A stretch of 64,000 nucleotides of DNA from Nitratiruptor sp. SB155-2 (GTDB taxonomy: Bacteria > Campylobacterota > Campylobacteria > Campylobacterales > Nitratiruptoraceae): NCBI RefSeq assembly GCF_000010325.1, contig NC_009662.1, forward strand, positions 826,501-890,500, written 5' to 3'. The notes under the pieces are model-generated. The model was given only the letters and a program-made list of their open reading frames with translations. It searched no databases and was not told the origin of the DNA. Position 1 is the first letter of the stretch, and each line of letters starts with the position of its first letter. Both the position numbers and the translations under genes were made by a program. Of this stretch, positions 11,000 to 14,435 are shown one piece after another.

Positions 11000-13534
11000 C
11001 TAATCAAAAAGTTTGAATGGCAAAAGCAATGTCCTTTTGATAATATTGAGAGGCGCATGTAGTGTATCTTTTATAGTTTGAGTTTTGATTTTTGGATTGT
11101 CTAGATCCCCTGTTATTTTAATCGTAGTGGAGACACTACCATCTTTTCCTAGTAATATGTATCCTGCAACAGGAATTTTATTCAAAATATTTGTAACGGA
11201 TTTCAATGTTTTTAATTGTAGAACCATTCCAATTTTATTTGCCTTGAGATCGATAATACCCTCTCCGTCAAACGTTGTGGAATCGGAAACGAGATGAAGT
11301 TTCTTGATGTACAACAGCTCTTTTGAATAGATAAAATCGACATAGCCATTTTTTATAAAGAGCCCTTTTGTATTAAAACCTGGATTTTGAAACGTGATGA
11401 GGGCGGGAACGGAATTGATAAACGCGAAAAGATTGTTAAAAGCTTGAAGATTTTTGATATATGCCCTTTGAACGGAAAAGCGTCCTCTCATTTTGCCTAC
11501 CGGTCCATGTAATACAAGCTCATATTCTCCTTTGGAGAGAAAATTCATTTTAAAAAGTTTATGTAGCACTTCATCGTGCATATTTTTCATAGAAATATTT
11601 ACGTTATTGTTTTGATACATAAAAACATATCTAGTAGGACCATAATTGCCTGAAAAATGAATCGTCTCCCCAAGATTCAGATGACCAAACTCGATGGGAA
11701 GAACTCTTTTTTTGTAAAGAATTTTCATGTTGAAAAGTTTGAAAGAGGCACGAATGTCATTGAAAGGTGACTGGTCTATCTTGTTTTTCTTTTGAAACAG
11801 TGTATCGAGTTTAAGATCGAGATTCTTGAATGATCCGTTCACTTTTTTGTCTTTGAAAGAGATTGATATTTTATTGTTGATATCTAAACTCAATCCGGCA
11901 TTTCCAGCGAAACCACGGATGAAAAAATGATCGATATTTTTCCCGCCTTCATAGATAATATTGTTTTTTTTCACCAATTCTGCTTCAAATCGAATAGGCT
12001 TGTCGATGGTGACTTTTGCCCATCCTTTTTGTGGATCTAATTTTTGAAGGAAAGGCGAGTAGGGTTTGATGAGCGTAAGATCATTCAATCGTACCATAGT
12101 ACGCTTGTTAAAGAAGATATCGGTATTGAATCTTTTCAGATGTGCCTTGGAGTGTTTGAGATCTAGAAGAAGTTTTTCAGAGAGATTGTCAGCCTTTAGA
12201 ATAATATAACTCTTTTCCTTGATAGAGACGTTCGTATCATGCAGGTCTAATTTTGCATATTGTTTATGTAAATCTATTTTTCCTTGGACATCAGCTTTCA
12301 CAATGGGTGGTAGAGAAACGAGTGATGGGTGAATAGTGATCTGTTTATTGTGCAAAGAAAAATTCGCTTTTTGTAAAAAGAGATCAAAGTTTTGGATGTG
12401 AATCAAAGAGTTTTTTGTTGTGAAAGATCCTTGTACATCTGTAGAGTAGTCATGGAAATAGAGTTTTACGTTGACAATGCTGTCTAAAATTCCTTTTTTA
12501 TGAATAATGGGGATATGAACGTCATATGATGCAAGAACTTTTTTAATTTCTTTGTCAAATCTGGTTTTTATCTTAATGAGAATATCTATATAGCTTTTAG
12601 ATTGCCCTAGATGGTATATGGTGACTTTTGAGCCTTGCAAAGATCTTTTTTGAAATATGGGTTTACGCAGTGTAAAATAGAGATTATTGCTTTTATAGTC
12701 GAGTATGATCTGTTTAACAACTACTGGAGCAATGCCTTTTTGAAAATCTATGGTTCCATCGTAGGCGACTGCTCGACCTTTAAAAAGATTTGGATCGAAT
12801 CCTTTTTTTAAATCTATTTTACCTTCGAAAAACTGAAGCCGATATTTTTTAGCGCGTATCTTTTTACAACTCCAGGATTTGATCTCTTCGTTGATGGGTA
12901 TTTGTACAAAAAGATTTTGTAGCTGTCTATTGGTAAATGGTCGGCTTTCAAGATATATTTTTACGATATCGCCAATTTTTGAGAGACGAATATTCCCTAG
13001 TATATCGTGTGTATTGAATGTTCCTTTGAAGAGAAAATCTTTGGTTGTCGTTACGGCCCGTCCTTTAATGAGGGTTTTGTACTTTTTAAAAACAAGGCGC
13101 TTGATGTTTGCATAGATTTTGTTTTTATCATATTTCAATGTCGTTACAAGTTCAAATTTGGGTGTAATAAGCGTAAAAATATTATGAGTAAAATAGAACT
13201 CTATTTTTTGCTTGTGGATGATAAGTGTATCCAGTTCGATATATTCGAAATATTTTGGGATAAGATTGATAAGATACAGATTTTTTTTGGCGCTTTCAAC
13301 AGAAAAGTCTGTTTTTGATCGTTTATCGGATTCAAGATGGATCTTTTGGGCTTTGAGAATCAGTTTTTTATCCAGTTTGAGATACAATTTCTTGATATGA
13401 ATCGGATGGAAATCTAGATGCTCAATGTAAATCCCTTTTTTTAAAAAAAAGTATGTACCTCCCAAAAGGATGAGAGTGGCAAAAAGAGTGCTTAAAATTA
13501 CTTTGGTTATCGTTGAACTTGTTTTAGTAAGCAT
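11000..13534 (-). CDS. Large AsmA/YhdP-like envelope protein
   Basis: An 844-residue protein with one N-terminal membrane anchor (about 8-31) and then a long, beta-rich periplasmic region with repeated DLH/DLK-type strands. The last 200 residues resemble the AsmA-like C-terminal region of the YhdP/TamB/AsmA group (INSVPALITF, FDGEGIIDLKANKIGMVLQLKTL, IPVAGYILLGKDGSVSTTIKITGDLDNPKI). Such proteins are thought to bridge phospholipid transport between the membranes. Its 5' end overlaps the 5' end of mltG on the other strand. The start is not firmly fixed: AAAGAA seven bases before the ATG is a weak ribosome site. Confidence 0.8.
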   Translation of the reverse strand: MLTKTSSTITKVILSTLFATLILLGGTYFFLKKGIYIEHLDFHPIHIKKLYLKLDKKLILKAQKIHLESDKRSKTDFSVESAKKNLYLINLIPKYFEYIELDTLIIHKQKIEFYFTHNIFTLITPKFELVTTLKYDKNKIYANIKRLVFKKYKTLIKGRAVTTTKDFLFKGTFNTHDILGNIRLSKIGDIVKIYLESRPFTNRQLQNLFVQIPINEEIKSWSCKKIRAKKYRLQFFEGKIDLKKGFDPNLFKGRAVAYDGTIDFQKGIAPVVVKQIILDYKSNNLYFTLRKPIFQKRSLQGSKVTIYHLGQSKSYIDILIKIKTRFDKEIKKVLASYDVHIPIIHKKGILDSIVNVKLYFHDYSTDVQGSFTTKNSLIHIQNFDLFLQKANFSLHNKQITIHPSLVSLPPIVKADVQGKIDLHKQYAKLDLHDTNVSIKEKSYIILKADNLSEKLLLDLKHSKAHLKRFNTDIFFNKRTMVRLNDLTLIKPYSPFLQKLDPQKGWAKVTIDKPIRFEAELVKKNNIIYEGGKNIDHFFIRGFAGNAGLSLDINNKISISFKDKKVNGSFKNLDLKLDTLFQKKNKIDQSPFNDIRASFKLFNMKILYKKRVLPIEFGHLNLGETIHFSGNYGPTRYVFMYQNNNVNISMKNMHDEVLHKLFKMNFLSKGEYELVLHGPVGKMRGRFSVQRAYIKNLQAFNNLFAFINSVPALITFQNPGFNTKGLFIKNGYVDFIYSKELLYIKKLHLVSDSTTFDGEGIIDLKANKIGMVLQLKTLKSVTNILNKIPVAGYILLGKDGSVSTTIKITGDLDNPKIKTQTIKDTLHAPLNIIKRTLLLPFKLFD

Positions 13535-14435
13535 TATTACGATTCTTTATTATTTTGCAAGGCCTGTAAATATTGAAAGTCCTCAAATACGAATCCCCCC
13601 AGGCAATCTACCATCTTCCATATTATATCTAAACAAAGCAGTTGTCCCTGTAACACAACTGGATGCTGTCGTGATACATTTTTTTGGGTATCCACAAAAA
13701 GGGTGGATCGATATACAGAAGAGACACCTTTCAAGACTCGATTTTCTTTATAGACTTACAAAATCAAAAGCCGCTCTTTTTCCTGTAAAAGTGATACCAG
13801 GAGAAACAACTATTTGGTTTTTTCATATCTTGGCAGATAGATATGGCTATGATGAAAATATGTTACAAAAAGTTTATAATAAAGTTGCCCCTTACCCAGA
13901 GGGTATACTTTTTGCCGATACATACTATCTGCCAAAAGGGATTGATGAAGAACATCTTGTACACTATCTCGTACGATTTGGATTGCAAAAGCATCGCAAC
14001 ATTTCAATGAAGGTTTTTGGGAAATTTGATCAAAAACAGTGGTTTGAAAAAGTGGTGACTATAGCTTCCATCATACAAAAAGAGGCTGCCAGTAAGGAAG
14101 AGATGCCTATAGTCGCATCTGTTATATACAATAGATTGAAAAAAAAGATGCCGCTACAAATGGATGGTACACTCAATTACGGCATCTATTCCCATATTAA
14201 AGTAACACATCGAAGGATTGCAACTGATACAACGAGATTCAATACATACAAATATATAGGATTGCCGCCTTATCCAGTTTGTATTGTGGGACTAGATGCG
14301 ATAAAAGCTGCCATCAAACCGGCTAAAACAGATTATCTCTATTTTGTAAAAGGCAAGAATGGTAAGCATCTCTTTTCGAGAAGCTATAAAAAACATTTGA
14401 AGTATATACATAATGTGAAGAAAAGAAACAGATAG
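13476..14435 (+). CDS. mltG: Endolytic murein transglycosylase MltG
   Basis: About 319 residues. It cleaves nascent glycan strands and is proposed to set peptidoglycan chain length. A single membrane anchor lies near residues 8-28, followed by a LysM-like region and the catalytic domain with the conserved glutamate in SIIQKEAAS and the family motif MPIVASVIYNRLKKKMPLQMD. An ATG at 13470 is also in frame, but AAAAGG directly abuts it. The GTG at 13476 has normal spacing and is preferred. Either way, the coding region overlaps the divergent AsmA-like gene by about 60 bp. Confidence 0.88.
   Translation: MAKRVLKITLVIVELVLVSIITILYYFARPVNIESPQIRIPPGNLPSSILYLNKAVVPVTQLDAVVIHFFGYPQKGWIDIQKRHLSRLDFLYRLTKSKAALFPVKVIPGETTIWFFHILADRYGYDENMLQKVYNKVAPYPEGILFADTYYLPKGIDEEHLVHYLVRFGLQKHRNISMKVFGKFDQKQWFEKVVTIASIIQKEAASKEEMPIVASVIYNRLKKKMPLQMDGTLNYGIYSHIKVTHRRIATDTTRFNTYKYIGLPPYPVCIVGLDAIKAAIKPAKTDYLYFVKGKNGKHLFSRSYKKHLKYIHNVKKRNR

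Follow-up and report, generated by a model that had tools for sequence, protein, structure and literature searches.

The two divergent genes mltG and yhdP start head to head in the window (the whole stretch of 64,000 nucleotides that was analysed), and the question raised by this locus is whether they really share coding DNA, how one segment can then encode the membrane anchors of two envelope proteins, and what such an arrangement would do to their expression. Both genes were identified by profile matches: the rightward product belongs to the MltG / YceG family (PF02618, 192.1 bits, cut-off 32.4) and the leftward product is YhdP (PF13116, 278.2 bits, cut-off 46). The earlier note had called the latter AsmA-like; its start and its reality as a gene stood, and its identity could be made more precise. 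MltG acts in peptidoglycan chain termination and YhdP in phospholipid transport. In C. jejuni we take the pair to be Cj0529c and Cj0530. The features of the locus are collected in Table 1.

Table 1. Coordinates of genes, starts, anchors and predicted promoter elements at the mltG/yhdP locus of the window.
Feature	Position	Strand	Remarks
mltG, endolytic murein transglycosylase (PF02618)	13476..14435	+	GTG 13476 favoured over ATG 13470
yhdP (PF13116, AsmA-like superfamily)	11000..13534	-	ATG 13534-13532
Head-to-head coding overlap, 59 bp	13476..13534	.	codon pairing 123:213
AAAAGGA ribosome-binding site of mltG	13464..13470	+	5 nt 5' of GTG 13476
AAAGAA, weak candidate ribosome-binding site of yhdP	13543..13548	-	upstream of yhdP ATG, from sequence
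MltG membrane-anchor core	13488..13544	+	best 19-residue hydropathy window
YhdP membrane-anchor core	13445..13501	-	best 19-residue hydropathy window
Predicted yhdP -10 box TATAAT	13622..13627	-	within mltG codons; 93 bp from yhdP start; without TG extension
Predicted mltG -10 box TACAAT	13383..13388	+	within yhdP codons; 93 bp from mltG start; weaker evidence than for the yhdP box
Predicted stretch common to both mRNAs, about 221 nt	13395..13615	.	starts set 7 nt after each -10 box

Each start codon lies within the other gene on the opposite strand, which places the pair among the divergent overlapping genes, and the claim that about 60 bp code for both proteins agreed with the open reading frames. 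Two mltG starts had been proposed. The GTG most likely is the true one, because a same-genus relative (L003, MltG 86% identical) has ATT at the position of the ATG and keeps both the GTG and AAAAGGA; also other same-genus relatives were used for this choice.

The comparison included 145 Campylobacterales genomes with a readable mltG 5' region, consisting of 137 of the 143 mltG-positive genomes and eight further genus members. Six mltG-positive genomes with a partial or contig-edge mltG (G022, G051, G081, G104, G109 and G112) were left out. Together with six second mltG copies, not counted as genomes, the set amounted to 151 mltG loci. All genomes of the phylum-wide draw belong to this one order. 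A second set of 99 loci, partly duplicating the first genome set, was made up of 80 loci from named records, including Campylobacter, Helicobacter, Sulfurimonas, Sulfurovum and Arcobacter, and 19 from the phylum-wide draw.

An antisense yhdP was present beside mltG in 122 of the 151 loci. The earlier note had proposed aligning orthologues to see if the overlap persists, and with membrane segments beginning at most 50 bp apart as the criterion it was kept in 120 of the 145 genomes and 16 of the 21 families. In one further locus, L142 of family f3, the automatic search for membrane segments went wrong, and the locus enters the counts only where stated; by eye it has the same arrangement, which raises the number to 121 genomes. 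Starts could be chosen from ribosome site and codon in 116 of the 120 loci, and all 116 overlap, with a median of 68 bp and 59 bp as the most frequent length; of the 16 loci of family f1 whose starts could be called, 12 share exactly 59 bp. In 22 loci both genes have a single canonical start ahead of the membrane segment, and all these overlap, by 56–116 bp. With the starts nearest the membrane segment chosen for both genes, the overlap persisted in 114 of 119 loci. The codons of the two genes are paired as 123:213 (positions 1-2, 2-1 and 3-3) in 121 of the 122 loci with an antisense yhdP, the exception being L146, where the genes lie apart. In the second set 93 loci had an antisense yhdP, 92 of them in the same phase. 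The six misses include L180 and L210, where a contig edge cuts mltG; L219 shows another phase and a large offset, and L214 a large offset.

That the overlap is an annotation artefact, one gene truly beginning further downstream as the earlier note had conceded might be the case, is refuted by these comparative data and has next to no chance of being right: although the nearest-start choice abolishes the overlap in 5 of the 119 loci, truncation would cost a membrane anchor or its positive tail, the unique-start loci overlap without exception, and the phase is constant. On this comparative evidence the head-to-head overlap is real and old.

One genus of the window's family shows unusual mltG 5' ends (L019, L023, L025, L031 and L265). 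Four of these five genomes lack any in-frame ATG, GTG or TTG of mltG ahead of the membrane segment, and L019 offers only a pair of TTG codons, 14 and 21 codons farther upstream. In all five, AGGAG-type sites are followed by ATT (two loci) or ATA (three loci), which suggests a non-canonical start codon for mltG in this genus.

How the same DNA can encode two anchors is accounted for by the codon pairing. In the 123:213 phase a yhdP codon is the complement of base 2 and base 1 of an mltG codon, followed by base 3 of the preceding codon. By the genetic code, codons with T in the middle (Ile, Val, Leu, Phe and Met) thus become codons with A in the first position on the other strand (Ile, Met, Thr, Asn, Lys, Ser and Arg), and opposite a T-middle codon no stop is possible. 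The double anchor is tolerable because a membrane segment is in this way read on the other strand as an open tail rich in Lys, Thr, Ser and Ile. Isoleucine pairs with isoleucine, and opposite the remaining hydrophobic residues stand mostly Thr, Ser, Lys or Asn. The puzzle put by the earlier note, that hydrophobic codons should face A/G-rich ones and that both strands nevertheless read as hydrophobic, is resolved by this pairing together with the staggering of the anchors. According to the hydropathy windows both strands are hydrophobic over only about 14 bp, where the membrane segments face each other; otherwise each segment lies mostly opposite the partner's Lys/Thr/Ser-rich tail or past the partner's start. 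Averaged over the overlap, hydropathy is 1.8 for MltG and 0.9 for YhdP. The claim that both anchors need the shared segment needs the correction that the two are largely staggered.

The tail preceding the MltG anchor differs between loci with and without the overlap. In a 12-codon tail the proportion of A-first codons is 0.76 with overlap (n = 114) and 0.49 without (n = 12, the tail being too short in 17 of the 29 loci without the neighbour), and in a 6-codon tail it is 0.74 (n = 120) against 0.53 (n = 27). The difference persists between family means (p = 0.001). Within family f6, which holds most of both states, the tail is no different (0.50 with overlap, 0.53 without).

Substitutions in 23 close pairs were counted by codon position in the mltG frame. 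The rates at positions 1 and 2 are 0.063 and 0.074 in the overlap, 0.092 and 0.046 in DNA coding for mltG only, and 0.064 and 0.130 in DNA coding for yhdP only. The position 1:2 ratio of the overlap (0.85) lies between those of mltG-only (2.0) and yhdP-only DNA (0.49), a pattern that fits selection on both proteins. Overall the overlap is less variable than yhdP-only DNA (0.121 vs 0.146, p = 0.02) and not more conserved than mltG-only DNA (0.121 vs 0.123, p = 0.77). No extra conservation that would mark the overlap as a regulatory element was found, its overall rate being equal to that of mltG-only sequence.

Promoters were searched for in 116 loci; L023, L025, L031 and L077, which overlap but have no canonical mltG start close to the anchor, were omitted. 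Matches to the -10 box of at least five of six positions cluster within mltG 76–90 bp before the yhdP start (95 matches), the other 15-bp bins upstream of yhdP holding 0–32. A perfect TATAAT is found at -125 to -60 of yhdP in 100 of the 116 loci, while 200 synonymous-codon shuffles of mltG gave 21.9 on average and 34 at most. The extended form TGnTATAAT is present in 73 loci (4.7 expected from synonymous shuffles, maximum 13) and absent in families f15 (7 loci) and f16 (11 loci). No TATAAT excess was found in five windows shifted 75–375 bp into mltG. With one locus per family the box was retained in 12–15 of 16 loci against 2.7–4.0 expected (three draws). Loci with mltG lacking the neighbour (n = 29; 23 genomes and six second copies) have TATAAT in three cases and TGnTATAAT in none. 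The yhdP motif is the same as the consensus of C. jejuni housekeeping promoters as set out in PMC3656092, i.e. an extended -10 box TGxTATAAT without a clear -35 box for sigma-70.

In the FastTree phylogeny of the 145 MltG proteins, which includes some long branches, the overlap state changes about ten times. Among eight independent pairs on supported branches the box tracks the overlap in 5–7 and opposes it in none (sign test, median p 0.03, range 0.016–0.063).

The box could also be a mere by-product of a conserved MltG peptide, Ile-Ile-x-Tyr, rather than a promoter, and where the box is perfect, ATT ATA indeed encodes Ile-Ile in the mltG frame in 85 of 100 loci. This explanation is very improbable: the synonymous shuffles keep the peptide and lose the box, both in its plain and in its extended form, the box is read in the two other mltG frames at 15 loci (85/10/5 over the three frames), and by eye Ile-Ile occurs at this place in only about 3 of the 29 MltG rows lacking the neighbour (L098, L116 and L145). 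In the window TATAAT lies within Ile-Leu-Tyr of mltG, most other loci having Ile-Ile. Since the box stands in differing frames, it has moved while staying a box. The comparisons show that the predicted yhdP -10 box is selected beyond the protein code.

For mltG, a perfect -10 box inside yhdP was found in 39 of the 116 loci (14.6 expected, maximum 23 in synonymous shuffles) and a box of at least five of six positions in 98 (70.8 expected, maximum 81). With one locus per family the perfect box is present in 7–9 of 16 loci against 2.0–2.6 expected; the less strict box, in 14 of 16, is barely above the shuffles (9.8–10.3 expected, maximum 13–14). Shifted windows gave no excess of mltG boxes past the shuffle range. 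None of the mltG boxes in the 116 loci is a TGnTATAAT, and in family f15 (7 loci) even a match at five of six positions is missing for mltG. Third-position divergence in 27 pairs dips near both boxes (0.175 and 0.174 vs about 0.3), with a further dip in one bin close to the start of yhdP. The earlier note had placed the promoters inside the opposite genes; predicted -10 boxes were found there, pointing to putative sigma-70 promoters that would face each other at short range, of which the yhdP box is strongly and the mltG box moderately supported. A generic sigma-70 scan found neither box (3 sites vs 1.6 expected), and it is uninformative here because it needs a -35 box, which Campylobacter promoters lack. 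The predicted leaders in the window, about 81 nt, are above the 20–50 nt that PMC3656092 names as the range in C. jejuni.

The overlap is dispensable, as the changes on the MltG tree show, and mostly these concern genomes where no yhdP was found. Among the 23 genomes in which no antisense yhdP adjoins mltG, a PF13116 match is present elsewhere in three and absent in 20, although the search misses some genes (no match in G056 despite the presence of yhdP) and G003 is only 71% complete. In families f7, f18 and f21 mltG has no yhdP next to it in any of the 13 genomes examined, and none of these gave a PF13116 match, which suggests loss of the transporter; G139 (f7), outside these 13, has a weak match. 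Six f6 genomes have a second, diverged mltG (L147–L152), and the DNA retrieved around it shows no antisense yhdP beside it in any of the six.

A natural counter-example to the interlocked arrangement is formed by genus g56 (G132 and G172; loci L260 and L261), where mltG and yhdP are still divergent neighbours but un-nested: a true intergenic gap lies between them, which in G172 measures 131 bp from one candidate ATG start to the other, and it holds TATAAT boxes upstream of mltG. To judge from these genomes the arrangement can be undone, but only rarely while both genes remain.

We consider it slightly more probable than not that mltG and yhdP are interlocked as a divergent pair with nested, facing promoters, whose mutual interference leads to negative coupling. 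The start codon and N-terminal tail of each gene lie in or beside the anchor-coding region of the partner, and the predicted sigma-70 promoter of each lies in the partner's coding sequence downstream of that region, so placed that the two promoters would be face to face about 230 bp apart. Transcripts would then start near 13395 (mltG) and 13615 (yhdP). Both boxes are present in 87 of the 116 loci; there the predicted mRNAs are complementary over a median of 213 nt, and pairing would be possible over both ribosome-binding sites. Polymerases from one promoter would cross the other, occlude it or collide there, yhdP probably dominating because its -10 box is stronger; the RNA duplex may be cut by RNase III, and the outcome would be a negative coupling of two envelope functions. 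The use of each predicted promoter is an inference from the boxes. Mutual antisense control or interference, which the earlier note had suggested as a consequence, would be the likely result of the predicted promoters and the length of complementarity, 213 nt typically and 221 nt in the window. That a promoter can repress one facing it is indicated by helD of Bacillus subtilis, where, according to PMC12802891, a stronger antisense promoter represses the sense one.

The main rival of the interference reading is an ancestral interlock without regulation, which is hard to undo and in which interference is slight and tolerated. As each promoter, ribosome site and anchor is inside the partner, parting the genes would need a rare duplication or insertion. 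Such an interlock would account for the fixed phase, for the ordinary overall substitution rate in the overlap and for the finding that the genomes lacking the neighbour in 20 of 23 cases have no PF13116 match instead of a moved yhdP; also the third-position profile includes no conserved stretch beyond what promoters, ribosome sites or starts explain. Against it, the separation in genus g56 makes un-nesting reachable, yet rare. We regard this alternative as a real possibility, even if one that we do not expect to prevail.

Mutual interference would also be part of a wider reading, which we put forward tentatively, leaning slightly against it as a whole: that the locus is an ancient module which an early ancestor of the sampled Campylobacterales probably already had, about 230 bp encoding two anchors in a pairing that suits both and carrying two facing promoters, and giving built-in reciprocal control of a peptidoglycan-terminating enzyme and a lipid-transport protein, with a promoter constraining the protein on the opposite strand.

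Divergent gene overlaps, excludons and convergent promoters have all been described before. A survey of 58 prokaryotic species (PMC2174442) lists 274 divergent overlaps of more than 4 bp, half of them in 123:213 pairing, a phase that it calls the least mutationally robust. Like these, the mltG and yhdP reading frames share their 5' ends on opposite strands; unlike them, the pair is kept in 16–17 of the 21 sampled families, both shared parts are membrane-anchor regions, and promoter boxes can be traced in the partners. With the excludons of Listeria and Staphylococcus, as defined in PMC7154746, the locus would have in common divergent mRNAs that overlap at their 5' ends, each possibly antisense to the other. 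This likeness, like any reciprocal repression at the locus, is a prediction from the -10 boxes; the mltG/yhdP overlap, unlike that of an excludon, is symmetrical and takes in both coding starts, instead of being one long untranslated leader. The convergent pair at helD resembles the locus in having two promoters, here predicted, that face each other, but differs from it in that both predicted mltG/yhdP promoters would drive protein genes and lie within coding DNA. No report of the mltG/yhdP overlap was found in the openly licensed literature searched, mostly by listing, and C. jejuni papers naming MltG held nothing on the gene arrangement in their accessible parts. As far as the literature searched shows, an order-wide, phase-fixed case in which both anchors share DNA, with promoter boxes within the coding sequences of the partners, is new.

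Long head-to-head coding overlaps in bacteria are easily mistaken for annotation errors or passing accidents. Here the phase is fixed across the sampled order, the natural losses serve as controls, and the constraint of an antisense promoter on the protein of the opposite strand can be measured. The locus also provides a simple rule: 123:213 pairing makes a membrane segment read as an open, positively charged tail, and two signal anchors can share their DNA. If the interference reading is true, peptidoglycan chain termination would be linked to phospholipid transport in Campylobacter, Helicobacter and their relatives.
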